Source of the DNA: Sipunculus nudus
Lineage: Eukaryota; Annelida; Sipuncula; Golfingiida; Sipunculidae
Direction of reading: 5' to 3'
NCBI GenBank assembly: GCA_026874595.1
Contig: CM049313.1
Coordinates: 75,384,659-75,448,658 of the forward strand
Length of the DNA: 64,000 nt
The notes beneath the pieces are model-generated. The model had not been told where the DNA came from. It saw nothing but the letters and a program-made list of their open reading frames with translations, and ran no database searches. The position numbers were made by a program, and so were the translations under genes. Shown piece after piece: positions 88 through 21,951 of this stretch (position 1 is its first letter; each line of letters begins with the position of its first letter).

Positions 88-2592
88 AAATATTCTATTG
101 TAATGTTTTTCATTTATATAAGAATATGAAAAGCTAAGAGGAAAGGGGCCCTCCTACTTGGTTATAGTAAAGTTCTAAATATATGATTGCAAACTAATAC
201 TCTGAAAAGACTGTCATGAAGAAAAACAGTAAAAGTTTTGAGATACTGTTTTGCACAGAAAATTTACAGATGGACAGGCAAGTGGACAGAATGGACTAAT
301 ACCTTTATTTCGCTTTCAAGAGAATAATGCATTTAAGTTTATATATAATCCTATTTTTTTAAGCAGATCCACTTTTTCCATTAAGAAGTTTACATCTGAA
401 TCATTTTTTTATTTACAGGTTTATAAATTTTTAATTAAAAAAACCTGAAAATATAAGTTAAAAAATTAGAATTGTTGCAAAAGTTGCAATCATTATATAT
501 ACAGAGTAAAAAACATTGGGTCATATTATGCATACACATATATTTTATTATTTTTAAATCATAAATGTTTAAACTGATTTTAAAAGAAAATAATGCTACA
601 ACATGGCATCTACAAGAATATTCCTTGAATCACTATTAAAAAGTTTTGCACATTGGAGTTTTCAGGACATGCTTAATTTTATTCACCAAAATAAAATAAA
701 AGTAAATTTGATAAAATAAAACATCTTTTCAAATAAAGTAAAGTATACACACTGTTGGTTGAATGAGGGACAAACAATATCATTGTGCTAATTACTATCC
801 CAGTTTTAATTAATTACTGGAATTAATAGTCAATTTCACACCTGGTGAAGTTTTTACTCTTCTGAAGTAAGGAATTACTTATCTCATGAACATCCACACT
901 TTCACAGCAATACACCACTTTGTGGACACAATTAAATGTACACTTTAATCATTGTAACCCTGGTGGTTCAATACAAAATCTAAAATGTAGCATGTCCAAG
1001 AATAAAATAAAATACAGAAAAATTATAACATTCATCTAGTTTATGCACCAGCTGGGGGGATGAGTGCAGGGCAGAGGGGAAGCCTGCTAGTAGTGGCCAA
1101 GCTGGGCCAAGGTAAGCTGCCTGGGGTGGGTTACATAATGCAAGTGAAGGCTGAACTACTAGGTGGGCTAGATGTAAACAACACTTGACATGGTGTATGA
1201 AAACATGAATAAAAGCTATTCATTCCAATCAATTTCTTTTGAAAGTTCAGATTTTAAAAGATTAAATCCTTATGCATATATGCTGGGAAAATTAAATCAA
1301 CAGTGCCAAAGTTGGACAAAATTTAAGGTATTGATTTTTTATTTATGCTAATAACTTGAAAAATTTGCAAAATTCAGATCTAATTTTGGGTAAACAATTG
1401 AATCTTGATTAAATAAAGTTATATTCCTGAAAAAAAGTCTCTAGGTTCAGCAATTCTCATGTTAGGTGAGTAAATATATTTCCTGATTTTTTAAAAAATT
1501 GCATTATGTTTTGGCCCATAACTTCAAAATAATACCCAATACTGACCTAATTTTTGGTATGTTCATAGAAAATGTATAAAAGAATGTGAATACTAAATAC
1601 GATCATAAACAGATCAGTGGTTTTGATATTAGGCAGCCTTGAAGTGTAACAATGGCTTTTTTTTATGGAAAACGGAGGTTTTTTCCCTTAATATCTCGAA
1701 GGAACAAAGTCCTAATGACCCAATTTTCGGTATGGTAGGAGATTTTGGGGACATCTAAAATTATGTCAACAGCCTGGGGAGCATAGAGATGTGCACTGAA
1801 TGATCTACAGTCATCAAAGTGGTCTGCTTGACAATGTAAGGGAATACAACAAGAGCCTCCAAAAAAAAATCAACAACTAGCCTAATTTTGCAGCTTTTAT
1901 TTTTAAATTTTAGATTTTAACAGATTAAATCCTTATGTATACATGGTGTGAAAGTTAAATCCACAGTACTTACAGGAAAAAAAACGTGCCATGGCCAAAG
2001 TTGGGCAAAATTTAAGGTACCAATTTTATATTTTTGCCAATATTTAAAAAAATTTAACTGATTTTGATCTAATTTTGGGTATACAATTAAATTTTGATTA
2101 ATTAAAGTTGTATAACTGGAAAAAAGTCCCTACCTTTAACACTTTTGGTCTTAAGTGACCAAATATCTTCCTGATTTTTTTACAAAGTCCATTATGTTTG
2201 GGCCCATAACTTTTTAAAATTATATAATACTGACTTAATATCTGGCATGTACATAGGAACTATATAGAGGAATATTTATGGTAAATATGAAGAAAACCAG
2301 ATGAGTAGTTTTGATATTAGGCAGTCCTGAAGTGTGAAAATAGATTTCTAATAAAAAATTGAGGTTTTTCCTTAATATCTCAAAGGAACAGAGTCCTATT
2401 GACCCAATTTTTGGCATGGTAGGAGATTATGGGGACATCTAACTGTATGCCAAATTCAGATTCGTAGGTCCAACGGTGTCGAAACGTGCCAGTCTTACGG
2501 ACGGACATCCAGACGGACAGACGGACGGACAGACGGACGACGGACAATGGACCATGACTATAGCTCAGATGACTTATAGTCAGCTGAGCTAA
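88..2592 (+). mobile_element. Family A Helentron-like element, copy A1 (5' truncated)
   Basis: It matches copies A2 and A3 from about position 88 and ends with the family 3' terminus: a GACGGACA-rich stretch (about 2499-2550), the hairpin ACTATAGCTCAGATGACTTATAGT, then CAGCTGAGCTAA. The first 50 bp or so of the intact family are missing. Unlike A2 and A3, it carries two copies of the internal module (about 1243-1767 and 1905-2440). It lies in the intron downstream of AGGF1 exon 8. No protein coding capacity is seen. Confidence 0.8.
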
Positions 2593-2964: not shown

Positions 2965-3124
2965 CACTGAGCTTGCTGTCTTTCTGTACTTTAGCCTGGA
3001 CCTGACCTGGTTCACACTCATCACATGTGTCACTGCCTGGGTGGATATGAAACAGCATGTGAGTACCCCCGATGACGATGCGATCTCCGTGTGTCAGTGG
3101 ATACGGCTCTCCCATCACCTTGGC
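2965..3124 (-). CDS. AGGF1: AGGF1 exon 8: FHA domain end and conserved PGSDTC segment
   Basis: 160 nt, phase 0 in and phase 1 out (donor AGTG|GTAAGT). It encodes GEPYPLTHGDRIVIGGTHML followed by FHIHPGSDTCDECEPGQVQ, nearly identical to vertebrate AGGF1. The acceptor is placed at TTGTAAG|GCC, which is weak; CCAAG|GTG six bases downstream would also keep frame. The next exon, leading to the G-patch, lies outside the window. Confidence 0.94.
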
Positions 3125-6100
3125 CTTACAACAGAAAACCTCTCTCATGTTCAACAATTCATTAATTGAGGCCACACAAAAAAAATAATTATTCTATGAA
3201 TTTGCAGCTAATAGATAGAGAGACAGATGTACAATGGACAAAGGAATATTGCTATACCTTAAAATACTTATAGTCAGCTGAGTTAAAAATGGAAGACACA
3301 TTTTATACTAAAGATTCACTTCATACCCTAACATAAGAAAAGGACTGTCAATTGACACAGCCACATTAGCATATAATGAAACTATTCTCATATCCCCAAA
3401 ATATTGATGAATCATACAAGTACTTTTAGATTATAACCTGAGTGATCCGGACATCATTTACAAATGTTCCGTTCTGACTGGCATGGTCCTTGATAAAATA
3501 CTGTCTTGTCTCCTCTGTGTATGTCACTTCAGCATGCATCTGAAAACAGAGACCATTTGGTTATCTTTATACTTGTTCTCTTTGTCTTGCATGGTCAGAC
3601 TTTTGGTAATAAATGACTGTGTAATGTGCCAGGATCAAATGAATTATCTGTACTGGACTTGACAATGGGCCTCTTTATCATAAATATTTTTCATTTTTCT
3701 TTTTTTTTTAACTGAAATGACAGAGGATTTCAGTATCTAAAGCTCAGAAATTTCACTAAAGTCACCTAGTTTAATCTCTGATAGGAGAGCTGCCTGAATG
3801 TCAAATCAAAAGTTGACCGTCTAAGGTGATATGCTTTGTCCACTGGTTGCCCACCATCATTTTGAGCAAATATTTCTAGAGAAAGATCACAGAATCTATT
3901 GAGCAGATAGCCCTCACCTGGAAGTATATATAAGAATTAAGAGAAGTTATAGCCTTAATAAGAAAAATCCTCTTTCATTTCAAGATGTGAAAGATTTTAA
4001 AGGGAACATTTCCAGTACAGAGAGACAGTCTGATGTGGAAAAAGATCTAATTCAGAATTACTAGTAAGATTAAGTCTGCAACATTTATATAAAAAAGATT
4101 TTAGAGATGTTAAATGAACCAGCTGTAAACAAACAGTTTTAGGAGGGGGATTGACAGTTTTATGGTATAATATATCACATGACAGCTGCTGGTAAAAGTT
4201 GCTAATGGGCAGTTATTGGGGATGAGAGTGAGATGGTGATGGACAGCTGGATAAGGGAGTTTTGATTAGCAGAACAGATGGTATACCTTGCTTGTTTGTA
4301 GGTCTGGTATCCTGATGGTGTGGCCCATGTCCTTCTCTCTACCAATGGTGGCCCCAGTGTAAGTGATAATGAACAGGCTACCCACGTCAAGGCTGTCTGA
4401 TGATGTCACCATCACGCGGATACAGGAAGGCCACTGACGACTGGACAAGTCTGTAAACAATTGGTAAAAGAAGAATGATCATGTTGACATCAGACAGTTA
4501 TTTAATTCAAACTTTTTAATACTAATATGCTTTAACATTACAATAGTATCTTGTTAATCAAAATTTTTACCATAAAGAGACATATTCTCCAGATTTTCAT
4601 CCAAAAGAACTTTGCTATAAGCATATACATACAAAATTATCTTTTATATAGGATCCTTACAGTTAACTACTTTACTTAATGTTTAAATTTTGTTTCAGTT
4701 GTACAGAAAACATACAGGTGATATAGTTGATAGTTGTTCATTTTTACCAACGATTATGCTTTTATAGGTACTGATACTTAGGTATATTTGTTTGTTAGTT
4801 TCTGATTATTTTTAACAAACATTTAATTTCATATTTAAACATATATCATACAGAATGATATATATATATATATATACAAGGCCTACAGGCCTAATGCGAA
4901 CCTGTGCAAAGTTTGGGAGTATGAATGGAGGTTTATTTTTAAAATATAATATTGATCCTCTTACCTCCTGCTTATCTACCATAGTCATTATGTTTCAGCA
5001 AAATGGTCGTTTCAGACCTGCAACTTTTAGACTAGGACATTTTAAAACTAGAATATGGGTAGAAGACAAGCGACTATGTGTATCCACAGAAATCAAGAGT
5101 ATGACAGGTGAAGTGAGGCATGGATTAAGTGGCAAGGGAATTAGAGTGAGGTGTGTTGCATATTAGCATGGATGTCTGCAGAGTAAACGTGAATGTAGGT
5201 GGCGCCACCTGTCATAAAATCGAGAAAGCTGTCCAGGATGTATAAACCTGCAAAATTTCAGGTGGATAAGTCAAATCACTGCCTAGATATGAGTGCTTTT
5301 ATCCCAAGGCAGATGAATAGATGGAACCTGTGCATAAATGGTTGCAGGTGGTGCCACCAGTTTTGCCTATGATGAATAGCTATGTGAGATCTATTCACAT
5401 GCAAAATTTTGGCCCAATCAGTCAAACGGTTCCCGAGATATGAGCTTGGATGTCTGCAGAGTAAACGTGAATGTAGGTGGCGCCACCTGTCATAAAATCG
5501 AGAAAGTTGTCCAGGATGTATAAATCTGCAAAATTTTAGGTGGATATGTCAAACCAAAGGCAGATGAACAGATGGACGCTGTGCAAAAATGGTTGCAGGT
5601 GGCGCCACCATTTTTAGTGTATGTTATAAAGCTATCCAAGTGCTACATTTGTGCACAATTTTTAGCCTGATTGGTCAAACAGTTCCTGAGATATATGGGT
5701 TGATGTGTGGAACAAATGCACAAATGGACGCTGGGCAGCAAGGAAAGGTCAGAGGTCAACCAAAAATGAGGGCGCAGCAGTTCACGTGTGACCTGATGGT
5801 AAACCCTATTCGCTTAAAATGCAACCAAGTTTTTTCAAACAGTTGAAAGATACAGTTCCAATAATCTGGGAATTCTGCAGCTAGACATTGTGTCTAGACG
5901 TCTAGACGCTGTGTCTAGACGTCTAGACATTGTCTAGACACCAGACAGAGCCAGGTCAGTTGCCATGGTGATGTCTGGACCCCACCTGGTTGTACTGAGT
6001 GACCTCTTGAATTGGCTGCTTAAACTCAGCATGTTGTCAAATCTGTTTTCAAACACAGAAAGCCTTTTTCAATTGGCTACACTGCTTTTTTAAAACTGCA

Positions 6101-9100
6101 TTTACCCAATCTATTCTTATAAAACTGACAGAACCCTATCATAAAATAATTCTTGTAAAGTTTTAACTAATCAGCTTGACAGTTTCATCATAAAACAGTG
6201 TATAAGCTAGAAGCATCTTAAATTCAATTTTCACTTGTAAAAAAAACCAATGAAAGTGGTGCCACCAATACCTCAATTTCAGATATGACATATGTGACAA
6301 ACATTGGTATAAAATTTGCTAATGATAGCTCTAGCTGTTTCTGAGATTTTAATTTTAGTGTGCTTTTTTGGACAGATGACTCAGTTCAACCTCCTGTAAC
6401 TTGGCCAAAAATCTCCGAACTGGAACCATTCGAATGACCTTGAGAAAGATTGTTCCAGGGATCATTTCTGTGAAATATTGGAAAATTTGGCTGGACAGTT
6501 TCGGAGATGAAGATTTTTAAAGCTTTTTAAGCTTTTTCCGTATAAAAACTCAGAAAATGCAGTTAAAAAAAAAATAAACAAAATCCAATAGTATTTTAGG
6601 ATGACTGTTTATTTGCAAAAAAATTGGTGATGCTAGCTCCTGCCGTTTTTGAGATAGCTATGGTTAACGTACAGATGATGGACGACGCTGCACCATCGCA
6701 TAAGCTCACAGGTTCGATAATAACACTTTCAATGTGGGATAAAACAGCATTTATGATATCCCTGCCTTGAAGTGATAAAACATGTCATTATTTTTAAAAT
6801 CATCCAGTTTTGCTGACTTAGCAGATCTTTTCCACTCAATAACACACCTTGCTCCTCTGACACCTCCATTTCAGACTCGCTCTCATCATCACTGGAGTCT
6901 GAGCATTCCCCATCTTCCAAATCACTCTCACTTGTATCTGTATCCGTGGATTCAGCATCTGATTTCTGACCAGCCTCCTCTGCATCATCATCTTCTTTAT
7001 CCTCAACATCAACTGACCCCTCTCCTCTGCTGATATCATCCCCCTTCTGCTCGTTCTTCCCCACATCCTCTTCCATTGTGACACCATTCTTTTCACCAGA
7101 CTTTGATTGTAACATAAGTTTCCTTCGTTGCTTACGATTTAGTTTTGTGGCAGATGGTATGACTTGCACATCTGACTCCTGACCTTTGACCTCGCCTACA
7201 TGGTCCATCTGTTGCTGGGTATAATAATCTTCTCCTGTCTTCTGTTCCACCTCATTATCAACCTCACCCTTCTTATCATCTTTCACAGTTAGCTTCTTTA
7301 CTTCCTTTTCTTTTCTTTCTATTTTTCGTTTCTTGCTTTTCTTTTTCTTTTGCAGCGAGGCCTCCGCCACCTGATGTCAAATATAACTTCAGCTCAAAAT
7401 TCCAAATATATTTTTATTCTGAACATCTAATGATTTTGTTATAAAAAACAAGGGACCCATGGGTCACGTCGCTCAGCTGAAGTTTAAAATTTTTGCAAAT
7501 GTAAAATATGCAAAATATTCTATTGTAATGTTTTTCATTTATATAAGAATATGAGAAGCTAAGAGGAAAGGGGCCCTCCTACTTGGTTATAGAAAAGTTC
7601 TACATATATGATTGCAAACTAATACTCTGCAAGACTGTCATGAAGAAAAACAGTAAAAGTTTTGAGATACTGTGATGCATATGAAATTTACAGATGGACA
7701 GGCAAGTGGACAGAATGGACTAATACCTTTATTTCACTTTCAAGGGAATAATGCATTTAAGTTTATATATAAGCCTATTTTTTTAGCATATCCACTTTTT
7801 CCATTAAAAGTTTTTATCTGAATCTTTTTTTTTATTTACAAGTTTATAAATTTTTAATAAAAAAACTGAAAATATAAGTTAAAATATTAGAATTGTTGCA
7901 AAAGTTGCAATTATTATATAACCAGAGTTAAAAAACTGAAAATATAAGTTAAAATATTAGAATTGTTGCAAAAGTTGCAATCATTATATATCCAGAGTGT
8001 AGCTCATATTGGGTCATATTATGCATACACATATATTTTATTATTTTTAAATCACAAATGTTTAATCTGAATTTAAAAGAAAATAATGCCATAACATAGC
8101 ATCTACAAGATTATTCCTTGAATCACTATTAAAAAGTTTTGCACATTGGAGATTTCAGTACATGCTTAATTTTATTCACCGAGATAAAATAAAAGATTAA
8201 GTAAAATTGATCAAGTAAAACATCTTTTCAAATAAAGTATACACACTGTTGGTTGAATGAGGGACAAACAATATCATTGTGCTAATTACTATCTCAGCTT
8301 TAATTTATTACTGGAATTAATAGTCAATTTCACACTTGGTGAAGTTTTTACTCTTCTAAAGTATGGAATTACTTATCTGATGAACATCAACACTTTAACA
8401 GCAATACACACTTTTGTGGACACAATTAAATGTGCACTTTAATCATTGTAACCCTGGTGGTACAATACAAAATCTAAATTGAAGCATAGCCTAGAATAAG
8501 AATGAATCAAATACAGAAAATAATAACATTCATCTAGTTAATGCACCATCGGGAGGGGGGGGGGGGGAGTGCAGGGCAGAGGGGAAGCCTGCTGGTAGTG
8601 GCCAAGCTGAGCCAATGCAAGCTGCCTGGTGTGGGTTACATAATGCAAGTGAAGGCTGTACTACTAGATGGGCTAGATGTAAACAACACTTGACAGGGTG
8701 TATGAAAACTTGAATAAAAGCTACTCTTTTCAATCAATTTCTTTGAAATTTCAGATTTTAAAAGATTAAATCCTTATGTATATATGCTGTGAAAATTAAA
8801 TCAACAGTGCTTACAGGGAAAAAACCTGCCATTGCCAAAGTTGGACAAATCTTCAGGTATTAAATTTTTATTTATGCTAATAACTTGAAAAATTTGCAAA
8901 ATTCAGATCTAATTTTGGGTAAACAATTGAATTTTGATTAAATAAAGTTATGTTCCTGAAAAAAAGTCTCTAGCGTCAGCAATTCTCATGTTAGGTGAGT
9001 AAAAATATTTCCTGATTTTTTAAAAATTGCATTTTATTTTGGCCCATAACTTCAAAATAATACCCAACACTGATCTAATTTTTTGTATGTTCATAAAAAA

Positions 9101-12100
9101 TGTATGGGAGAATATGAATACTAAATATGATCAAAAACAGATCAATGGTTTTGATATTAGGCAGCTTCGAAGTGTACTAATGGCTTTTTTATGGAAAACG
9201 AAGGTTTTTCCTTAATATCTCGAAGGAACAAAGTCCTAATGACCCAATTTTCGGTATGGTAGGAGATTTTGGGGACATCTAATGGTATGCAAAAGTTTGG
9301 AATTGTAGGTCCAATGGTTTCAAAACGTGCCATGTTAATGTCCGGACGGCCGACGGACAATGGACCACCACTATAGCTCAGATGACTTATAGTCAGCTGA
9401 GCTAAAAACCTAACTTGCAGGTATGAAATTGAAGAAACGGCCATGTTTCATGAACTCTGTTCCTTTTCCCCAAATAAATCTGATTGTTTAAGTAATTTGC
9501 CAAGAACAAGCTTGGAGCAGAAAGATAAACCCTGAGGGACTTCAAGCCATGGTTTACTTCCTGATTCTTGGCTTGATTTAAAGCAACAACACATCCCTTA
9601 ATATGTTCAGTGATCATATTATTGTGCAGATAAATACCAATTGCTGCTGTTATCAAGCTTGGTAATGGTTTCAGAGGTTGTGATACAAACAGAATTTTTT
9701 CCTGTTTGTTATCCTTGATATCTAACCTGGACAAGAATGGTTATGTTTTTTCCCAACATACTATTATTCTTTTTCCCCCTGGCCAATTAGTGAAGAAATT
9801 GTGAAATGATTAAAACAAAACCTGGGATGCAATTATCTTTTTAAGTGATTCCAGAACAACAATCCTATTTTTATTCTTGACATTTTATTTCTTACCATTT
9901 CCCTGCTTCCCTAATTTTCATGCTAATACAACACAGGAATACTTGCAATTGAAATCAACCTTTTTTTCCAAGGGATCCGTCAAGTGGCTGGTCAACAGTT
10001 TAACTTGCTGTTAGGATTCTAATTCAAGTGCAAGCATCAAAGTTAGAACACTTTTTAATAAATTTCTTTTGCACGAGCCTAAATAAAACCTGATAAATGG
10101 TTTCTGTTTCACTGAATGCCTTCCAGCTAGGGCTGATGCTGCAGTTTTAGATCTGATAATGAATAACTGCCTCAAGGAAATTCCAGCTACTCACACAGCT
10201 TTGACAAATACTTCCAGTGTCCGACCATGAAATTATCAGGTGACCAGGATCTGAAGTCCTTTGGGGGCGTGGGGGAGGGGGGGGGGAATGAATGCTAAAT
10301 TGCTGAAGCAGATTAAAATTACCTTGAGCTTGACTTCTTAGTCTTTCTATGGACAGACTGGAGAAACTGTGAATCATGTCCTCCATTTCCCTGGGCTCTC
10401 CCTACAACATGACCCATACACTGCTAACTATAGTCTATTCCACAGCAGGTTGCTCATTGAAATTTAGAAATATTTTATAAATTGACAGATCATTTAACAA
10501 AAGTAAGTTGCTTTGAAGGAATGAGGAATAGGGCTAATTAACTAGAATGAAAACAAAACCATACTCAACAATATATTTTAGTAATTCAGTATTATCAGTT
10601 TTTGAAAAGTCAATTTTTTACAACATCTCAACCCTGTTCATAAAGGTGACCAAAGGTCAAGGTAACTGGTCACATGATCAAACACCCTGTTGATTGGTTG
10701 TTTAGTTTCATAAATATAGGGTTGCCTGCAGCCAACTCTGAAAAAATTGTGTATTTGGTGTTTATGAAAATCAAAGGGTCTCAGGTCTTTATCCCCTCAT
10801 TAGCTTTAATGTCAAATGCAGCAATAAAATTTCAGTTAAAAAGAGAATTAATCGCCAAATTTCAATGAATACTTAAGTCACTGCAGGGTTTGTATTATTT
10901 GGATTTCTTCAACTGTCATAGAAACTTCATTTCAGACTCTTTCATAAAACAAGCAACACCTGTGAATCACAAACTCATGAAACATGGCCTTCCTTTTTTC
11001 ATACAAATGTATTTAAATTTTCTTACAGATTCCTAAGAATGCCTGAAATTCATTTTGTAAGATTCAATAAAGTTACTACTCATATAAAACTACTACTTGA
11101 GTGTTTCAACCCAAGACAATTTCGTTACAGGATGCCACATTTTAAACAAGGGACCCATGGGTCACAGCGCTCAGCTGAAGTTTGAAATTTTTGCAAATGT
11201 AAAATATGCAAAATATTCTATTGTAATGTTTTTCATTTATACAAGCATATGAGAAGCTAAGAGGAAAGGGGCCCTTGTACTTGGTTATAACAAAGTTTTA
11301 TATACATGATTACAAAACTAATACTTTGACAAGACAGTCATGAAGAAAAACAGTAAACGTTTTGAGATACTGTGATGCATACAAAAAATTTACAGATGGA
11401 CAGGCAAGTGGACAGAATGGACTAATACCTTTATTTCACTTTCAAGGGAATAATGCATTTAAGTTTATATTTAAGCCTATTTTTTTTAAGCATATCCACG
11501 TTTTCAATTAACAGTTTTTATCAGATTAATTTTTTATTTATTTACAAGTTTAATAAATTTGTAATTAAAAAATCTGAAAATATAAGTTAAAATATCAGAA
11601 TTCAAAGTTGCAATCATTATTTATTTATCCAGAGTGTAGCTCATATCGGATCATATTATGCACAACATATATTTTATTATTTTTAAATCACAAATGTTTA
11701 AAGTGAATTAAAAAGAAAATAATGCTACAACATGGAAACTTCAAGATTATTCCTTGAATCACTATTGAAAAGTTTTGTACATTGGAGCTTTCAGTACATG
11801 CTTAATTTTATTCACCGAAATAAAAGATTCAGTAAAACTGATAAAATAAAACCATCTTTTCAAATAAAGTATACACACTGTTAGTTAAATGAGGGACAAA
11901 CATCATCATTGTGCAAATTATTATCTAAGCTATAATTTTTTACTGGAATTAATAGTCAATTTCACACCTGGTGAAGTTTCCACTCTTCTGAAGTAAACCA
12001 TTACTTATCTGACTTATTTGTGGACACAATTAAATATGCACTTTAATCATTGTAACCTTGGTGGTACAATAGAAAATCTAAAATGTAGCACAGCCTAGAA

Positions 12101-15100
12101 TAAGAATAACAAGTGACCCATGGGTCATGATGCTCAGCTGAATGGGAAGAGATTCACAAAAGGAAATTTTATCATCTGAATGGTCGTATATACCCATTCA
12201 ACTGAAGCATCAAACAGATTAACCAACAGGCCAAGATTGTGTCTGTATTTATATATCTCAAAAATAGAGAAAAAAAATGCGTAAAAAAAAACAGGTGGCT
12301 CCACCAGTCTGCAGAAACTAATAAAAAGACTTAATGGTCAATATGCATGCAAAGAATCATGGTGATCTCTGCATTAGTTGTTCAGATACTTCAGCTTTTG
12401 TATCAAATTTTCCATTATTCTGAGGGATACTTCGGAGTCCTATAGCTTAAAAGATACAGGTAACAGAGACCTAAATTCATGGGCCTCCTTGCATGACAAG
12501 AATGAAGATTCTAGGTCCAGTTGTTACAATTTGTGCCACTTTAACAGATGGCAGCATCCTTAAAGGTCTCAAAAATAGAGGAAAAAATTCGTAAAAATTT
12601 GAAAAAATATAGAGGTGGCACACCCAGTCTGCAGAAACTGATGGAACACCTCATGATCAATATGTATGCCAAAAATCATGACCATCAGTGTTGTAGTTAT
12701 TGAGATACTGCAGTTTTTGTATCAAATTTTTCATTATTATGGGGGGTAATTTGGAGCCATACAGCTTAAAGGATATGGGTAATAGAGACCTAATTTCAGG
12801 TTTTCATGGAGGCTTTTCATGGGTCTCCCTGTGTGTCAAGAATGAAGATTCTAGGTCAAGTTGTTATGATTTGGGCCCTGTTAACAGATGTTCATATCTT
12901 TAAAGGACTCAAAAATAGAGAAAAAAATTCGTAAAAAAGCTGAACAAATACAGGTGGTGCCACCAGTCTGCAGAAACTGATGAAACACTACATGATCATT
13001 ATCCATGCAAACAATTATGGTGATCTCTGCATTAGTTGTTCAGATACTTCAGTTTTGTATCAAATTTTCCATTATTCTGAGCTGTACTTTGGAGTGCCAT
13101 ACCTCAAAGGATATCGGTAGAAGAGACTTAATTTCAGGTTTCCGTGGAGACTTTTCATAGGTGTCTCACTGTGTCAAGAATGAAAATTCTAGGTCCAATC
13201 TTTACGATTTGTGCCCTGTTAACAGATGTTCACATTTTAAAGGTCTCAAAAATAGAGAAAACTGTTCGTAAGTAAACGAAAAATACTCATGGCGCCACCA
13301 GTCTGCAGGAACTGATGAATCACCTCTTGATCAATATGTATGCCAAAAATCATGACCATCAGTATTGTAGTTATTGAGATGTTGCAGTTTGTTTTTATCA
13401 AATTTTTCATTATTCTGAGGGGGGGGGGGAATTGGGAGCCCCACAGCTCAAAGGATATGGGAAACAGAAACCTTATTTCAGGTTTCCATGGAGACTTATC
13501 ATAGGTCTCTCAATGTGTCACAAATGAAGATTCTAGGTCCAGTCTTAACAATTTGTGCCCTGTTAACAGATGTTCACATTTTTAAAGACCTCAAAAACAG
13601 AGAAAACAATTCATAAAGAATGGAAAAATACAGGTGGCGCCACCAGTCTGCAGGAACTGATGGAACATCTCATGATCAATATGTATGCCAAAAATCATGA
13701 CCATCAGTGATGTAGTTAATGAGATATTGAAGTTTTTGTATGAAATTTTTACTATTCTGGGGGGTACTTTGGGGCCCCATAGCTCAAAGGATATGGGTAA
13801 CAGAGACCTAATTTCTGGTTTCCATGGAGACTTTTCATAGGTCTCTCACTGTGTCAAGAATGAAGATTCTAGGTCCAGTTCATAGGATTTGTGCCCTGTT
13901 AACAGATGTTCATATTTTTAAAGGTCTCAAAATTAGAGAAAAATATTCGTAAAAAAATAAAAAAATACATGTGGCGCCACCAGTCTGCAGGAACTGATGG
14001 AACATCTCATGATCAGTATGTATGCCGCAAATCAAGACCATCAGTGTTGTAGTCATTGAGATGTTACAGTTTATTTTTATCAAATTTTTCATTATTCTGG
14101 GGGGTAATTGGGAGCCCCACAGTTCGAAAAATATGGGTAACAGAGACCTATTTTCAGGTTTCAATGGAGACATTTCATAGGTCTCTCAATGTGTCAAGAA
14201 TGAAGATTAAAGGTCCAGTCTTTATGATTTGTGCCCTGTTAACAGATGTTCACATTTTTAAAGGTCTCAAAAATAGAGAAAACAATTCGTAAAGAATTGA
14301 AAAATACACGTGGCACCACTAGTCTGCAGAAACTGATGAAACACTCCATGATCAATATGTATGCCAAAAATCATGACAATCAGTGAAGTAGTTAATGAGA
14401 TATTGAAGTTTTTGTATGAAATTTTTGTCTATTTTCAGGGGTATTTTGGGGCCCCATAGCTCAAAAGATATGGGTAACAGGGACCTAATTTCAAGTTTCC
14501 ATGGAGACTTTTCATAAGTCTCTCCCTGTGTCAAGAATGAAGATTCTAGGTCCAGTCTATAAGATTTGTGCCCTGTTAACAGATGTTCACATTTTTAAAG
14601 GTCTCAAAAATAGAGAAAACTATTCGTAAAAAAATCGAAAAATACAGGTGGCGCCACCAGTCTGCAGGAACTGATGGAACATCTCATGATCAATATGTGT
14701 GCAAAAAATCATGACCATCAGGGATGTAGTTAATGAGATATTGAAGTTTTTGTATGAATTGTTTGACTATTCTGGGGGGTACTTTTGGGCCCTATAGCTC
14801 GAAGAATATGGGAAACAGACCTAATTTCTGGTTTCCAAGGAGATTTTTTATGGACCTCTCAGAATCTCAAGTTACAAGATTCTAGGTCCAGTGGTAACGA
14901 TTTGTGCCTGGTTAACGGACAGGCAGACGGCACGACAGACAGATGGCAACGGACAAAGAGTGATCGCTATTGCTCAGATGACTTACAGTCAGCTGAGCTA
15001 AAAATCAATAAAGAAAATTATAACATTCATCTAGTTAATGCACCAGCTGGGGGAGGGGGGGGGGGGGATTGCAGGGCATAGGGGAAGCCTGCTAGTAGTG

Positions 15101-18100
15101 GCCAAGCTGAGCCAAGGTAAGCTGCATGGAGAGGGTTACATAATACAAGTGAAGGCTGTACTACTAGGTGGGCCTGATGTAAACAACACTTGACATGGTG
15201 TTTGTAAACTTGAATAAAAGCTTCACTTTTCAATCAATTCCTTTGAAATTTCAGATTTTAAAAGATTTAATCCTCATGTATATATGCTGTGAAAATTAAA
15301 TCAACTGAGCTTACAGGGGAAAAAAGTGCCATAGCCAAAGTTGGTAAAAATTTAATGTATTGATTTTTTATTTATGCTAATAACTTAAAAAATTTGCAAA
15401 ATTCAGATCTAATTTTGGGTTAACAATTGAATCTTGAGTTAATAAAGTTATATCCCTGAAAAAAGTCTCCAGCTTCAGCAATTCTCATGTTAAGTGAGTA
15501 AAAATATTTCCTGATTTTTTAAAAATTGCATTATATTTGGACCTATAACTTCAAAACAATATTCAATACTGACCTTATTTTTGGTATGTTATCAGAAAAT
15601 GTATGGAAGAATATGAATACTAAATATAATCAAAAACAGACCAATGGTTTCGATAATAGGCAGCCTTAAAGTGTAACAATGGCTTTTTTATGAACAATGG
15701 AGGTTTTTCCTAAATATTTTGAAGGAATGAAGTCCTAGGGACCCAATTTTCGGAGTGGTAAGAGATTTTGGGGACAACTAACTGTATGTTAAATTTTGGA
15801 TTCATAGGTCCAACGGTTTCAAAACGTGCCCTGTTAACGGACGGACGGCTGGACAGCCGGACAGACAAAGGACCACGACTATAGCTCAGATGACTTGTAG
15901 TCAGCTGAGCTAATAATTGGTGGTACATGTTGATAAAATGATCAATTAATAAATAACAATTACAATTAATAAATAATAAATAACAATTCACCTTTGCCTG
16001 TCTTTATTACACTAAGAACTCAATAACTGATGATTGTTCTGTTGAATGATTTCAAGTGATGACAAGAACATATATAAACAGTATATTATATTTATAGTCT
16101 ATAAAGCATAAATAATAAACAGAGTGCAGCAAAATAAACAATTTTTTAAAAGGCTGTTTTTAAACAAAAATCCAGTGAACTGGTTTTATTCTTGTTTCTG
16201 GCTTTACAGTTACATCATCACCACGTGCATGTATAACCTTACCATACTTTGCAAATATGAAAACCAGCTCAATGGCTTGAAGACAGGTGTTACAATGTGA
16301 CAGGTTTATAAATGGCTTAAAAAAAGATACCTAAGTTTACCTGGGTAGAAGGCAAAGTTTGTCTAGCAGAATATCAAACATCCTATAATTACTGAGCAAG
16401 TGAGAGTTTTTTTTATCTAATATCACTGGATGGGGTCAGCAGGATTGAATCATGTCCTGTTTGTAAGTCAAATTTTACACCAACAATATCAGATGCAAAC
16501 AAATTAAAGGACAAAATACAAGCCTCATAAAAATATAAGAAAACTGAATTGTATAAATGACAGTCTTATTAAGTTTCTTCTTCACAATATTACTGGAAAT
16601 TTCCCTCCTTAAATACTCACCTCACCAGATCTTGCAACAGTCTTTCCACTTTTCAGTTTTTGTTGTTGAGCTCTGTAGGTTTCCATGTCAACCTGAGAGT
16701 GAAACTTATACTCTTGCTGCTCTGCATCATAGTAGAAGTATGTACCAGTCTGATAGTCAAAGTACAAACCCTGCTCCTGGAACAGAAGAAAAAAGAGTAA
16801 GTCAATTGCAAATAATCAATGAAAAAGCCTGGAATCTTGAAAACAAAGATCAAACTGGTGATATTTTATTAGGAGGAATATTTGTAGTCGAATGTAGGGC
16901 AGATGATCACCTGTTTATATGTGTAAAACTGAAGGTGACAGATTTAGTGTGTATTAAAAAATATGTACTTCCATATGCACACTGACAATATAACAGGTGT
17001 TTGCATATATCATAATTTTTAATGCAATATGACTCACTGATTCTAGTTTTAGGATAAACGCTCTCGACGTTTTCTCAAAATATTTTCTAAATAATCATGA
17101 TTATATATCATGATTGAGCATTTATATGTTAAGTGCTTTATTAATGACTTAATGTTTTTGAATTATTAAAAAATTTTACACACAACTTCACTACAAGTAG
17201 AATGTAAAACTGGTAATAGCTAAATATTCATTTGTTCAAACTTCAAATATTAAGCAGAATATCAAATGTCACAGATATTAAACAAACTTGATTCTAGTCC
17301 ATTTAGAATATGACCATTACACTTCCAATCTATCAAGAATATAAAAACAAGAAAAAACAGACAACTTACAGCATCATAATAGTAGCCAGAACTATAGTCG
17401 TAATAAAGGCCTGTACGTTCATCAAACACAAAACCAGTCTGTCCCAAAGCTTCCTCAGCTGCTGATCTCAAACCATCTACCAGGGACTCAGAGCACTGTA
17501 ATAAAAGAACACTCACTTTCATTGCAAGGTATAGCTATAACTTTTCCCAAAACTTCAGATCTATGTAAGACTTTCAGAGTGAAAAGTTGAAATGTTTTGC
17601 CTGTTTACTTAATACCAGATTTATGTCCGCTTTAGTTAAAATGTATGTAAAACCTGTGAAAATATCTTAAATTATTTTTAAAAAATCTTGATTTGTTTTT
17701 TAAAACAAATTCAGAATTTATTTTGAGAACAAATTATGTGACCCTGAAAAAATTAAGAGAACCCCTAACCACACATGGTGAGGTAGAAGTGTTGAATAAT
17801 AAGCTTTACAAATCAAGTTAATGACCTGTGTAGCCAGCACACAAATATGAGACAGTAGCAATAATTATTTTATAATAAGAAATGGTATTGGTATTATAAG
17901 TATTATTCGTTGAATCAGATAAGGTGATAATGTTATTGACAGGGAATACAATAAAGTGGCTACATAACAAATAGATGGTTTTTGTTACGAAGACAAATTG
18001 TTCAGGGGAAAATACTGGGCTGATCTGGGATTCGAACCCATGTGGGTGGCGCACAAGTCCGGCGTACCAACCGCTTCGCTAGCAAAGCAAGCTTCACTAG

Positions 18101-21100
18101 CGAGACAGTTCCGTCCGCTTTTATGTCACCCCGTAACATTTGTGATATGAAACAAATTTAAATTGTTACAGGAATTGCATTTCGTTGCTGGACAATGTGA
18201 ACTGATTGTGAGGTTCCGTCACAATAAAATTAAATATTTTACTGTAATCACTTTCACTTGTTAGGTTAATAAGTTTGTAGTTGGCTCTGTTAATTAAGTC
18301 AGGATAGAGATAACAATATGATGATAAATGAATTTTAAGCCTGCTGCATTTAAAATTTTCATACATATGCATTTGAAAATAAACAAGGCCTACAGGCCTA
18401 ATGCGAACCGGTGCATTGGGAAATACACCAGGTATAATGCTTCAGTGCTGGATCATTACTTTTCATGTATATGAACGATGCAAGAACTAAACATTTTGAT
18501 TATGAAACAATTACACAAATATCAATGCTGAAATTCTGGCATGGGTGCACACAACACAAAAATGATTGTAGCTTGCACCACCAGTCTTGTATACAACAAA
18601 GCTATCAGATATATATACATATGCCCAATTTCAGACTGATATATCAAACCCCTCCTGAGAAATAAGCAGGGACACACACTGTGCAAAAATTATTGTACGT
18701 GGCACCACCAGTCTTGTATATGACAAAGATATTCGATATGTATAAAAATGCCCAATTTCAGGCTGATATATCAAATTCCTCTGTAGAAATAAGCAGGCAC
18801 ATACACTGTGCAAAAGTCATTGTAGGTGGCGACACCTGTCTTGTGAACGAGAAAGCCATCAAAGTTACATAGACAGGTCAAAACATCAGGCCAACACATC
18901 AAACTTACCTTGAGTCTGATGCATGGGGCTGACCAGGCTTAGGTGAGAAAGGCAGTTGCACTGAGTGAACTCATGACCTGCACCTGGCTAAACAGAGTAA
19001 ACTTTTGACCTGTACCTGGCTGCACTGAAAAATCACTGAACAAAACCATTTGAACAAAATTGAATTATCAAAATCTAAGGATAATTAATGTGTGCGATTT
19101 AAGAATTTGGCCCAGTGGTTTTTGAGAAGAAGATCTCTGTAGCTGCTGAGCTAAAACGGGCTGTTATGGCATATGACTAAATTTAAGCTTCCCATAACTC
19201 TGCCAAAAGTCACTGAACTGCATAAAATTGTGTGATGCTAACTCTTGCCATTTTCAAGATAGTATGGGTTAACGTACAGACGATGGACAATGCCACACCA
19301 TCACATAAGCTCACAGGTTCGCTAAAAATTCTGAGTATCTTCACAAATGCTGAAGATTTTTGACAGTTTCATGATTTACTGAAACCACTCCACCAAGGAG
19401 GGGTTTGAATTGGGTACCTGACACTGACCATGAGAAGTAATCCTATGGTTCTCACCTGTTCTTCTTTTCTGTGATTTGAATCAAGAAATTCTGTAGAAGC
19501 AGGATCATCTTTTGTTGCTGAGCTTTCAGGAAAATGTGTAGCTTCAGTTGTTTTGTCATCATCCTCACAACAAACAGGATCTGAAAAGTCAAAAACTGTT
19601 GTGTACCTTCCGTGAGGTCCAGCTGTTTTACGACCATCAGACTTCCAACCTCAACACTAGACAAAGCCTCTACCAAACCATGTTATGATGAACAAACAGG
19701 ACTTCATGGATATATTGATATTTCTTTAACTATACACAGCTTTTGGCTCTAAGGGCGTGAAAGATACATAAAACATTGCTTTAATAATTATAATATTAAT
19801 AATAACTAGAATACGGGTAGTCGACAAATTCAGAGTGGAACGGGTGAAGTGAGGCATGGATTGAGTGGCAAGGGGAAAAGGAGTGAAGTGTTGCATATTA
19901 CAATGGATGTCTGCAGCCGAAATGTTACGCTCCCGAGGCAGCGGAAATCTTGCGCTTCTACAGAAGCAACTGATTTTCAGGTTTATACATCGGAGAAGAA
20001 GATTTTTAAAGGTTTTTAAGCTTTTACCCGATTAAAATCTAAGTAAATGCAGATAGCTAAAAAAATAAACAAAATCCGATAGAATTTTTAGATGACTGAT
20101 ATTTTGCATAAAGTTTGGTGATGCTAGCTCTTGCCGTTTTGAAATAGTATGGATTAACGTACAGACGACACACGCCGCCACACCATCGCATAAGCAGGTC
20201 GAGGACGACCGCAGATTGTAGTACGTCCTTCGTTTGAGGTACGTACCTCGTTTGAGGTACGCCTGTACTTAGATGGAAGTACGACGTGACTGACAGGGTA
20301 AATTCATGTAAAACATCCAAATAATTGGCAATGTAAGCCTCGGAATCCCCAAAAGAAGAAGAAAAAAGGATGGCAAAAGGTTGCACCCCCTGGGACACCT
20401 GGTCAGTGGTTAGTATATGGAAGGGAAGAATCCCACTACCATGCATGGTGATATTGTTTTATATTTTTTTTCTGGGCAATAAAGAGCAAATTCAGAGCAC
20501 CTTTACATAGAATATTAATACATGGGCAATTAATAAATAACACTGCATGGAGCATACCACGTCCGCAATTATGTTACATTTATAAAAAGCATGCAGTGCT
20601 GTAAACAGATATAAGTGCAGTGACTGATGTCTCTTTATATATTGGCTGGTCTAGTAAAAAATGTGGAGAGATGCAGTGAGCAATATTAATTTTAATGCAT
20701 GAGAAAAAAAGAATAAAGTGCATGTTAAGCACTGATAACAACACATGAAAAGGAATGGAGATAAATGGGTACAATAATGGGCCCAAGTTGAAAAAAAAAG
20801 ACTTGCGTTCTATCCACGCATGGGATTAATTATTAATGAAAATCTGACACAGCTGTAAAATGAACAAAACTATAATATTAACAACCAATAACTTCTGGTC
20901 AAACCACCGAGCTGTTTCTTCAATGCTTCTGTTCTGAAATAAAAATAAAAAATAAAAATGGTTAAACCTCATTCATTGTTGTTCAATGCCTCGTGAAATG
21001 GCAAATATTAAAATACCTCTGTTGACAATAAAAGTAATTGTCATAATTTAAGTGCAATGCATGTTAACTGAAAAGCAACTTCAATTTTAATACGGTTTTC

Positions 21101-21951
21101 CTAGCTATTATCAGATTATATAGGTACAAGTCCGTGAACAACAAAGTGCCGTACTGCGATCAAAGTACAGCGGCGTACTTCGGTGCAAGTACGGTCGTAC
21201 ATGGGTGACTTTAGAAGTCAATTAAGACAAAATATGCCATTGAATTTCTTGCTAACCCACATCAGAAAGTTGTTGAATATGTAGGTTTTTATATGATGCG
21301 TCGTTTCAATCCTCCGTGTCACTGGTGTTTGATAAAACGGGAGATATAACACGACATGCCTCGGATGTGGATCTGAAAATGCTGTTATCTTGACAGGAAA
21401 CCCCCTAACAACATATTCGCGGATGTCAACTGGAAGAACTATGTATTGTCTTGTATGATTGGCCAACACTAGGGGATTCCGAGGCTTACATTACCAATTA
21501 TTTGATGTTTTAAATGAATTTGCCCTGTCAGTCACGTCGTACTTCCATCGAAGTACAGGCGTACCTCAAACGAGGTACGTACCTCAAACGAAGGACGTAC
21601 TACAATCCGCGGTCGTCCTCGACCTGATAAGCTCACAGGTTCACTAAAAATATTAAAATGACTGAAAAATCCAACGGTCATGAAAACGTCACCTGTTTGC
21701 ACCCCGACGTCTACTCTGGACAGTTCAGCCTGTTTGTAGCCATGCAGCCTCTGACTGACCCTCTCGTAGTCTTTGGTGAGTCCTTCATAGTGAGAGTTCA
21801 GCCTGTTGTACAGTCGCTGGAGCCGGGACAGTTCGTTCTGCGTGTTGGTCAGTTCGTTCTGCGTGTTGGTCAGGGACGCTTGTGTAAGCGCTAGTTCTGA
21901 TTCCAAGGCCTCTACCTGCACCCTCAGCTGTTTAACAGAATCTTCCTCCAT
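2965..21951 (-). CDS. AGGF1: AGGF1 orthologue, partial gene (exons 1-8; 3' end left of window)
   Basis: Spliced minus-strand gene; exons in transcript order are 21693-21951, 19456-19580, 17370-17495, 16621-16776, 6848-7370, 4287-4450, 3438-3539 and 2965-3124. All introns are GT-AG and the phases join without a break, giving 1,615 nt or 538 codons plus one base. The domain order (coiled coil, tandem aromatic OCRE repeats, lysine-rich then acidic linker, FHA domain with GREKDM, SQNGTFVND and FHIHPGSDTC motifs) matches animal AGGF1, a protein linked to angiogenic signalling and RNA processing. Human AGGF1 is about 714 residues and ends in a G-patch; none is found here, so those exons should lie beyond position 1. 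A phase-0 exon could be missed in the 9.2-kb intron 4. Identification is by recalled family sequence, not a search. Confidence 0.93.
3210..3286 (+). repeat. Possible solo 3' end of a family A element
   Basis: ACTTATAGTCAGCTGAGTTAA at 3266-3286 is a degraded family A 3' terminus, preceded by GACAGATG...ACAATGGACAAAGGA that recalls the GACGGACAATGGACCA of intact copies. It lies in AGGF1 intron 7. It is short, so the call is tentative. Confidence 0.4.
3438..3539 (-). CDS. AGGF1: AGGF1 exon 7: FHA domain, middle
   Basis: 34 codons, phase 0 at both ends (acceptor CTGTTTTCAG|ATG, donor CAG|GTTATA). Across the exon 6-7 junction the FHA motif reads SK|MHAEV, equivalent to the usual S-x-x-H. It continues TRQYFIKDHASQNGTFVND, the FHA Asn-Gly signature. 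The internal ATG is not a start codon. Confidence 0.97.
3540..4286 (-). other. AGGF1 intron 6
   Basis: Plain AT-rich intron between the two FHA exons. No element recognised. Confidence 0.55.
4287..4450 (-). CDS. AGGF1: AGGF1 exon 6: FHA domain, first half
   Basis: Acceptor TTGTTTACAG|AC completes an Asp codon from exon 5. The frame runs LSSRQWPSCIRVMVTSS, then VGSLFIITYTGATIGREKDM and GHTIRIPDLQTSK, ending at phase-0 donor AAG|GTATAC. GREKDM with HTIRIPD is the FHA Gly-Arg phosphothreonine-binding loop and its following strand, as in AGGF1. This is one of the best conserved parts of the gene. Confidence 0.97.
4876..6720 (+). mobile_element. Family B Helentron-like element, copy B1
   Basis: It starts ACAAGGCCTACAGGCCTAAT then GCGAACCTGTG and ends CACAGGTTCGATAA; the sequences are inverted with respect to each other. 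The design is the same as family A (ACAAGG start, 5' palindrome, subterminal inverted repeat, TAA end) with unrelated sequence. Internal repeats of about 140 bp with GTGGCGCCACC lie near 5195, 5343, 5475 and 5596. A short TCTAGAC palindromic cluster is at 5881-5945. It occupies most of AGGF1 intron 5. Confidence 0.78.
6848..7370 (-). CDS. AGGF1: AGGF1 exon 5: basic/acidic linker before the FHA domain
   Basis: 523 nt, entering at phase 0 (acceptor TTGACATCAG|GTG) and leaving at phase 1 (donor GCAAG|GTGTGT). It opens with a lysine-rich, nuclear-localisation-like stretch (KKKKSKKRKIERKEKE). It then becomes strongly acidic, with runs such as DKEDDDAEEAGQK, TDTDTSESDLEDGECSDS and SDDESESEMEVSEEQ. 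The LEDGECSDS block corresponds to the PEEGEITDS block preceding the FHA domain in vertebrate AGGF1. The acidic coding DNA makes shadow ORFs on the plus strand that are not real. Confidence 0.93.
7448..9405 (+). mobile_element. Family A Helentron-like element, copy A2 (complete)
   Basis: It starts ACAAGGGACCCATGGGTCA and ends TCAGCTGAGCTAA. GCTCAGCTGA near the 5' end is the exact reverse complement of TCAGCTGAGC at the 3' end, leaving asymmetric subterminal inverted repeats. A 12-bp palindrome (GACCCATGGGTC) lies at the 5' end and a hairpin (ACTATA/TATAGT) just before the 3' end; the last four bases CTAA fit the Helitron CTRR rule. A poly-G tract lies at 8556-8567. It sits in AGGF1 intron 4. 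Classification is inference. Confidence 0.8.
9406..11145 (-). other. AGGF1 intron 4, unique segment
   Basis: Between elements A2 and A3. I see no exon, TIR or repeat match here apart from a G tract near 10268-10287. Confidence 0.5.
12109..15001 (+). mobile_element. Element C: Helentron-like element with a tandem-repeat core
   Basis: The termini are family-A-like: start ACAAGTGACCCATGGGTCA followed by GCTCAGCTGA, end GCTCAGATGACTTACAGTCA then GCTGAGCTAA. Between them is an array of about 338-bp units instead of the A core. The layout (short 5' end, tandem core, 3' hairpin and CTAA) resembles bivalve 'pearl' or HINE elements, known non-autonomous relatives of Helentrons. No coding capacity is seen. 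It inserted within A3 after AGAATAAGAATA. Confidence 0.82.
12255..14920 (+). repeat. Eight tandem units of about 338 bp inside element C
   Basis: The anchor CCACCAGTCTGCAG occurs near 12301, 12622, 12960, 13295, 13640, 13977, 14315 and 14654, a spacing of about 321 to 345. Each unit also carries TTCTAGGTCCAGT, GTGCCCTGTTAACAGATGTT and CTCAAAAATAGAGAAAA. Most have GGTGGCGCCACC or a close variant. Unit ends resemble the element's own 3' flank (GGTCCAG...GTGCC...GTTAACGGAC), suggesting amplification of a subterminal segment. Confidence 0.9.
15914..16620 (-). other. AGGF1 intron 4, exon-4-proximal segment
   Basis: AT-rich intron with short repeats of AATAAATAACAATTA near 15944-15990. Nothing else is recognised. 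Confidence 0.5.
16621..16776 (-). CDS. AGGF1: AGGF1 exon 4: remainder of OCRE region
   Basis: 52 codons, phase 0 at both ends. Acceptor CTTCTGTTCCAG|GAG; donor GGTGAG|GTGAGT is preferred over the overlapping CTG|GTGAGG because it matches consensus and keeps phase 0. It encodes EQGLYFDYQTGTYFYYDAEQ, then YKFHSQVDMETYRAQQQ and a basic turn KLKSGKTVARSGE. The FHSQVD motif is nearly identical to vertebrate AGGF1. Confidence 0.96.
17370..17495 (-). CDS. AGGF1: AGGF1 exon 3: start of OCRE region
   Basis: 42 codons, phase 0 at both ends (acceptor TTTTATTACAG|TGC, donor GCT|GTAAGT). The frame reads ESLVDGLRSAAEEALGQTGF and then aromatic octapeptide-type repeats TGLYYDYSSGYYYDA. This is the characteristic OCRE onset of AGGF1, where the equivalent vertebrate segment is ESLRAAAEAAVSQTGF. 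OCRE domains bind proline-rich splicing partners. Confidence 0.96.
17983..18138 (-). mobile_element. tRNA-like short element with inverted ends, copy S1
   Basis: On the minus strand it carries a Pol III type B box (GGGTTCGAATCC, 18028-18039) and an A-box-like TAGCGAAGCGGTTGGTACGC about 25 bp upstream of it. The outer ends are TGTTACG and CGTAACA. There is no poly-A or simple-repeat tail. It lies in AGGF1 intron 2. It may be a tRNA-derived SINE or a MITE that captured a tRNA-like sequence. Confidence 0.75.
18383..19325 (+). mobile_element. Family B Helentron-like element, copy B2
   Basis: It starts ACAAGGCCTACAGGCCTAAT then GCGAACCGGTG and ends CACAGGTTCGCTAA. Three internal units of about 120 to 130 bp carry variants of GTGGCACCACCAGTCTTG near 18572, 18693 and 18822. 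It lies in AGGF1 intron 2 and ends about 130 bp from exon 2. Confidence 0.76.
19456..19580 (-). CDS. AGGF1: AGGF1 exon 2: Asp/Glu/Ser-rich linker
   Basis: Acceptor TTTTGACTTTTCAG|ATCC completes the codon split after exon 1. The frame reads DPVCCEDDDKTTEATHFPES and continues to RKEEQ at donor CAG|GTGAGA, phase 0. The segment is low complexity and acidic, with no conserved domain expected between the coiled coil and OCRE. The call rests on matching phases and strong splice sites. Confidence 0.82.
19804..21646 (+). mobile_element. Family B element, copy B3 (5' truncated, split by a TIR transposon)
   Basis: The left part (19804-20194) matches B1 from its ACTAGAATATGGGTAG region onward, with internal deletions; the end is TAAGCTCACAGGTTCACTAA at 21627-21646. 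The intervening 1,432 bp is a separate DNA transposon. B3 ends only 45 bp inside the donor of AGGF1 exon 1, so it fills nearly all of intron 1. Confidence 0.72.
20195..21626. mobile_element. 1,432-bp DNA transposon with about 155-bp TIRs, nested in B3
   Basis: The left end 20195-20350 and right end 21472-21626 are near-identical inverted repeats, both starting CAGGTCGAGGACGACCGC. The inserted B3 sequence is duplicated as ATAAG on both sides (20190-20194 and 21627-21631). The TIRs and interior are rich in GTAC words (GTACGTACCTC, AAGTACGG). No transposase is visible, so the element is non-autonomous. The CAGG end with a 5-bp duplication did not let me name the superfamily. Confidence 0.85.
21693..21951 (-). 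CDS. AGGF1: AGGF1 exon 1: start codon and N-terminal coiled coil
   Basis: The exon starts at MEEDSVKQLRVQ with a good Kozak context (aacATGG) and ends at donor CAG|GTGACG, phase 1 after 86 codons. Leu/Glu/Gln-rich heptads with a duplicated TNTQNEL block form the coiled coil. It ends in VGVQTG, which matches the segment after the coiled coil of vertebrate AGGF1 (VEVQTE). The same frame stays open upstream to an in-frame ATG at 22152, so the annotated start is the conservative choice. Confidence 0.92.

Follow-up and report, generated by a model that had tools for sequence, protein, structure and literature searches.

The repeat families A, B and C of Sipunculus nudus are best explained as non-autonomous Helentron-type elements (HINEs) on the minus strand of the DNA analysed here, a reading to which we give a probability of about 0.92. 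This DNA, called the window, is the whole stretch of 64,000 nucleotides at C8:75384659-75448658 of a 1.43-Gb genome. In Helentron orientation, the elements carry TTA and a 5'-ATIR word (ATIR; asymmetric terminal inverted repeat) at the start, and a 3'-ATIR word, a palindrome and CTTGT at the end. HINE families are where A, B and C are best filed, although a 5' hairpin was not found in B. The elements in the window are as follows.

4876-6720, minus strand: B1, a HINE; 3' tip palindrome AGGCCTACAGGCCT at 4876, 3'-ATIR at 4896-4906, 5'-ATIR at 6707-6717, TAA (plus strand) to 6720.
7448-9405, minus strand: A1, a HINE; 3' palindrome at 7453-7466, 3'-ATIR at 7471-7480, 5' hairpin and 5'-ATIR at about 9375-9405.
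11146-15913, minus strand: A2, a HINE of the A body type, split by C1; 86-90% identity to A1 when C1 is taken out.
12109-15001, minus strand: C1, a HINE whose ends are of A type and whose body is different; it sits inside A2 in an A-run, with no target duplication.
18383-19325, minus strand: B2, a HINE with a 127-bp central repeat in 2.3 copies.
19808-21647, minus strand: B3, a partial element of B type with the Helentron 5' end but no 3' tip; a TIR element (20195-21626) lies inside, and the upstream limit was set by eye.
95-2592, minus strand: A-type tail with a body and a Helentron 5' end but no 3' tip.

The sequence-only reading had proposed that the three families share one terminal design while their bodies are unrelated, and the motifs were indeed found at the positions it gave. 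In the range that it covered, five elements have two ends (A1, A2, C1, B1 and B2), all in a single orientation. C1 turned out to lie inside A2, and the A-type tail is located beyond the range. At the far end of the range, 21646, a B-type 5' end is present (word at 21634-21644, TAA to 21647), but its 3' tip is missing and the TIR element interrupts it. The terminal inverted repeats of this TIR element, which sits inside the B-type 5' fragment, are about 155 bp long and 96% identical, and a short target duplication containing ATAAGC is suggested by eye at its flanks.

A1 and A2 start with ACAAGGGACCCATGGGTCA, C1 with ACAAGTGACCCATGGGTCA, and B1 and B2 with ACAAGGCCTACAGGCCTAAT. The end word is GCTCAGCTGA in A and C, where it agrees exactly with its own reverse complement at the other end in 3 of 3 copies, and GCGAACCTGTG in B, where the 11-bp words of the two complete copies have one mismatch per pair. 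The reverse-complement words immediately precede TAA, and if the ends were joined in Helentron orientation, CTTGT would stand beside TTAGC or TTGCTTGCC. A mechanical detector, which requires ACAAG, a hairpin, an exact 10-mer and then the reverse complement of the 10-mer, found 4 of the 5 window copies plus 4 rows at two places without a TAA tail; B2 was missed because of one substitution in it. No TAA-tailed hit of this detector was obtained in 20 shuffled windows. With a related detector, 70 sequences (345,417 bases) gave 15 rows that contain only three word types, while one shuffled set gave 0 rows.

Using BLAST between the A, B and C bodies, no match was found except between the ends of A and C, where it is limited to the first 34 bp and the last 53-135 bp. 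C1 has a central repeat of 338 bp in 7.1 copies (12497-14916), and the A-type tail contains the microsatellite GACGGACAGACA in 3.3 copies (2500-2539); no long tandem array was called in A1, which has a 70-bp duplication only. A GGTGGCGCCACC-like palindrome is repeated in the B and C bodies, with 12 of its 13 window places inside B1, C1 or B2. It recurs in central repeats (5197-5609, 12293-14658, 18697-18836), though the bodies of B1, B2 and C1 do not align. Exons with FHA and OCRE domain matches are also located in the window, at 3430-3560, 16600-16800 and 17350-17510 on the minus strand, and the host gene probably resembles AGGF1.

The ends were first described as Helentron-like asymmetric terminal inverted repeats, which fits the published Helitron2/Helentron anatomy, but the end then taken as the 5' tip is the 3' end. 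The distance from the word to the ACAAG tip is 20-23 nt, with a palindrome adjoining, and the distance from the word to the opposite tip is 2-3 nt. In Helitron2, according to the cited sections of PMC3627910, the 5'-ATIR forms part of a hairpin and is separated from the 5' end by 0-2 bp, and the 3'-ATIR immediately precedes a hairpin and is separated from the 3' end by 20-30 bp; for oyster HINEs, the cited sections of PMC7492417 describe a right-flank subTIR followed by a palindrome. Compared with this anatomy, the spacing of the words and the position of the palindrome indicate that the Helentron 3' end, where a palindrome follows the 3'-ATIR, is the one with the ACAAG tip, that the 5' end is on the TAA side, and therefore that the elements lie on the minus strand.

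Folding of the ends differs among the families. The 5' end of A1, on the TAA side, forms a hairpin (z -4.74; 0 of 200 shuffles equally stable), and that of C1 forms a weaker one (z -1.76; 8 of 200), while no 5' hairpin involving the B ATIR was seen in B1 or B2 (z 0.50 and 0.48; 136 and 141 of 200 shuffles equally stable). The 3' palindromes are perfect by sequence. As single strands, those of A1, C1 and B1 fold no better than shuffles (z 0.32, -0.47 and -0.63), and that of B2 is weakly better (z -1.79). The results for the B 5' ends and the 3' palindromes argue against B fitting the HINE type description in full. An ungapped count over 14 A-type 5' ends, in which indels score as breaks, gave 134 conserved hairpin pairs out of 168 and no pair with a two-sided change.

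The exact tip pattern occurs 20,011 times for A/C and 6,638 times for B in the 1.43-Gb genome, and the reversed-pattern controls for both tips gave 0 hits. For three insertions, a paralogous copy without the insert serves as the empty site, and the comparison shows that the elements went precisely into A-runs, which are T-runs in Helentron orientation, with no target duplication; the junctions are ambiguous by at most about one A. The first is C1 within A2, with A1 as reference; the second is a B element within an A-type copy at L061, with L051 and L068 as references; the third is an A-type element with the tip ACTAG within B at L062 and L069, with the window B2 as reference. The junction of the nested element is identical in L062 and L069, which suggests that a B with its A-type insert was itself copied, or was otherwise duplicated. 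A composite element was considered for the two A tips found 44 bp from B tips and was rejected, since at L061 a B has gone into the A-run of an A-type copy. At both L054 (contig C1:203414) and L061 (contig C1:997709), B lies 44 bp inside an A-type tip, with an identical left junction and different B subfamilies; the right flanks of the two loci differ, so the explanation for L061 does not cover L054.

The empty sites bear on another explanation, in which a cut-and-paste TIR transposon carrying subterminal repeats gave rise to the families as MITE-like derivatives. Such derivatives would account for the inverted words at both ends, the high copy number and the lack of coding capacity. However, the ends are asymmetric, the three empty sites are without target duplication, and the combination of symmetric TIRs and target site duplication that marks cut-and-paste elements and MITEs was not found there. 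Joined head-to-tail ends, same-strand runs and D ends carried by a Rep-helicase element (see below) also speak against such derivatives, and a MITE origin is very improbable.

The matched words at the two ends had been read as co-evolving recognition pairs, of which the pairing by type stands (17 of 18 adjacent pairs) but co-evolution within copies is not supported. The sample consists of 25 sources, namely the window and 24 loci, in which 45 tips and 32 5' ends of types A/B were recognised. Twenty stretches were drawn from the first 100 places listed on contig C1, each anchored on an exact tip, and their choice was thus not random. The 45 tips gave 18 adjacent tip-to-end pairs (AA 10, BB 7, AB 1, BA 0; Fisher p 0.00025), the other tips having no recognised 5' end nearby in the sampled stretch; a between-element control with 6 pairs only gave p 1. 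Between palindrome and word, the 45 tips divide into A with the A word (26), B with the B word (16) and A with neither (3).

The tip pattern for this count was relaxed after the ACTAG-tipped nested A-type element had been found in L062 and L069; under the stricter earlier pattern, both loci read as a B tip followed by an A end, which makes two further discordant pairs. L056, with an A tip and then a B end, is kept as the discordant pair, and it is probably a 3'-truncated B beside an A tip, with similarity to B spanning about 3070-3917. Rows from L050 and L057, in which the A word itself had been called a 5' end, were left out. For substitutions, 20 pairs were compared, including three nested pairs assigned by hand (11146-15901, L061 61-3782 and L062 61-2478) and omitting L056. 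The words match perfectly in 7 of the 20, and mirrored substitutions number 0 of 17 (13 in 3' words, 4 in 5' words), in a count where 5' words were detected at ≤1 mismatch and larger divergence is hidden. The pairing thus belongs to the type, and co-evolution at the level of copies is not supported.

Such matched end words do not point to an incompletely described mobile system, as had been suggested, for they are already reported for ATIR/subTIR families (PMC3627910, PMC4067079). According to the cited sections of these papers, Bao and Jurka (2013) defined ATIRs and described compensatory changes between related families (PMC3627910), and Thomas et al. (2014) found subTIRs nearly identical in Helentron families that are <70% identical (PMC4067079).

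An autonomous Rep/helicase element with the same ends had been named as a target for searching. One with the same end design was found, which we call type D, but none with the A/C or B words among the Rep matches examined. Type D is a fourth end type with a different word and with the palindrome stem TGACC/GGTCA, as in C. The D-like tip pattern has 1,108 hits against 8 reversed-control hits, and the D tips among the 100 places listed all start with ACAAGATGACC (by eye). Its 5' end folds stably (z -5.47; 0 of 200 shuffles equally stable). With the Helitron_like_N profile, 143 genome matches were obtained (150 of 195 candidates scored), and 23 of the 30 fetched Rep loci are one family. Two long copies of the type-D Helentron were delimited.

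C7:31563967-31589513: type-D Helentron copy, unit of 25,547 bp.
C11, about 50374843-50400605: type-D Helentron copy, 98-99% identity to the C7 copy.

Homology between these copies begins with ACAAGATGACCAGAGGTCACGCGCTTGCCGGAA at the D tip and ends with TTTCCGGCAAGCAA at the D 5' end. The C11 copy contains a 2235-codon open frame with OTU, Helitron_like_N, PIF1 and Exo_endo_phos domains (searched as three pieces of one frame), and Rep, helicase and C-terminal endonuclease of the type-D Helentron are within one protein. An HUH-like SPHAH motif and YIAAYMTK were recognised by eye, and among solved structures the closest to the Rep piece is Helraiser (E 5.6e-8). This protein is encoded on the strand where ACAAG leads, that is, antisense in Helentron orientation, as the cited part of PMC3627910 describes for a few other elements. 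In the upstream part of the frame at the C11 H11 locus (L039), there are N-terminal in-frame tandem units of 69 bp with copy-variable length, and matches to STPRs and DUF6570. The right flank of the C7 copy, after 31589513, contains retroelement-like coding sequence with a DTGAD-like motif (by eye).

In both 25.5-kb copies, the 5' word occurs once more internally, at a distance of 2.1 kb from the tip (at L049:8635 and the matching place in L072), and this word together with the 3' tip delimits a short D element; two 5' words are located near the far end of the D unit. No hairpin folding was found at the internal 5' end (z 0.92). This could reflect a short element nested at the 3' end, or the birth of short elements through use of an internal 5' end.

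Type D also occurs in same-strand runs, for example eight hits at contig C1:64761021-64777637, and in C11 a D 5' end directly abuts the tip of the next D copy, the preceding unit ending in an A-run. Head-to-tail copies and same-strand runs are expected signs of rolling-circle concatemers and fit them, and other routes to tandem copies are possible. Together with the central tandem repeats of C1 and B2, the clustering of type D might alternatively be taken for satellite-like arrays that arose via recombination or segmental duplication and share their ends by coincidence. This is hardly credible where identical exact ends recur thousands of times on both strands and insertions are precise.

The search for a partner of A, B and C covered 30 of the 143 Rep matches, four of which (C11:50385293, C4:36174940, C7:31578448 and C7:71189229) were extended beyond 1.5-kb flanks, and none of these yielded a Rep-coding element that carries the A/C or B words. 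Exact A, B or C words occur in none of the four extended matches, and they are absent from 28-kb and 27-kb stretches around the D Helentron. C7:71189229 was rejected as a partner, its six word pairs looking like chance and being without a CTTGT tip. A homology break between L036 and L038 was likewise rejected as an element end, since it falls inside coding sequence.

One might suppose that the words are separate recognition codes, each pair co-evolving with its own Rep, and that A/C, B and D are orthogonal systems in one genome. The strict matching of words to types in the sample agrees with this, as does a D Helentron of its own whose surroundings lack the exact words of the others. However, no Rep partner of A or B is in hand, ATIR complementarity alone accounts for word pairing within types, and the absence of mirrored substitutions tells against co-evolving pairs. 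The stem common to C and D despite their different words also means that a single Rep could read the tip. We therefore consider separate codes unlikely.

In the HINE reading that we prefer, the steps can be sketched from the literature. A trans-acting Rep-helicase would nick the 5' end in a T-run, and one strand would be peeled off by rolling-circle synthesis. The 3'-ATIR would then pair with the 5'-ATIR and open the 5' hairpin, this pairing together with the 3' palindrome would set the end point, and the product would be inserted in a T-run with no target duplication. Family specificity probably resides in the word pair, with the body as a passenger. A more speculative extension, in which we place little confidence, is that the ends are exchangeable modules: the palindrome could be a general 3' signal (as the stem of C and D), the ATIR word could be the family key, and short elements might arise via an internal 5' end. 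With the word as a family-specific key, there would be several parallel mobilisation lines (W1-W3) in one genome.

From the above, very abundant anonymous repeats are assigned to a known transposon group and their polarity is corrected. The D ends are tied to a Rep-helicase-endonuclease element, a kind of link that the oyster HINE authors call unresolved in the cited part of their paper (PMC7492417). With D copies that have intact boundaries and with the contrast between word and palindrome, what Rep reads at each end becomes testable. A literature search on the literal end and repeat motifs gave no match, and the families may already be catalogued in a database such as Repbase.

Compared with known systems, A, B and C resemble HINE/DINE-1 elements as described in the cited sections of PMC4067079: subTIRs near both ends, a 3' palindrome, central repeats, T-run insertion without target modification, and conserved ends with divergent bodies. 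The mite HINEs of the same source differ in that their subTIRs are palindromic and 38-60 bp from the 3' terminus, whereas the 3' word here is at 20-23 nt. B also departs from HINE/DINE-1 in having no 5' inverted repeat by folding. Cg_HINE of the Pacific oyster, in the cited part of PMC7492417, has an 11-12 bp subTIR, which on the right flank is followed by a palindrome, as well as satellite-like central repeats, no target duplication and GTCY-kind microsatellites, to which GACGGACAGACA of the A-type tail corresponds; this likeness is judged from the description. It is not linked to an autonomous Helentron in that account, whereas here the sister type D is linked to one by exact ends. The likeness to Helitron2, judged from the cited parts of PMC3627910 and PMC5148889, includes ATIRs at the published spacing, a 5' hairpin in A and D and a weaker one in C, a palindrome at the place of the 3' hairpin, compensatory word changes between families, and a RepHel that is sometimes antisense, as in type D. 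In contrast to Helitron2, the D Rep protein has a C-terminal endonuclease domain, which is the mark of a Helentron.
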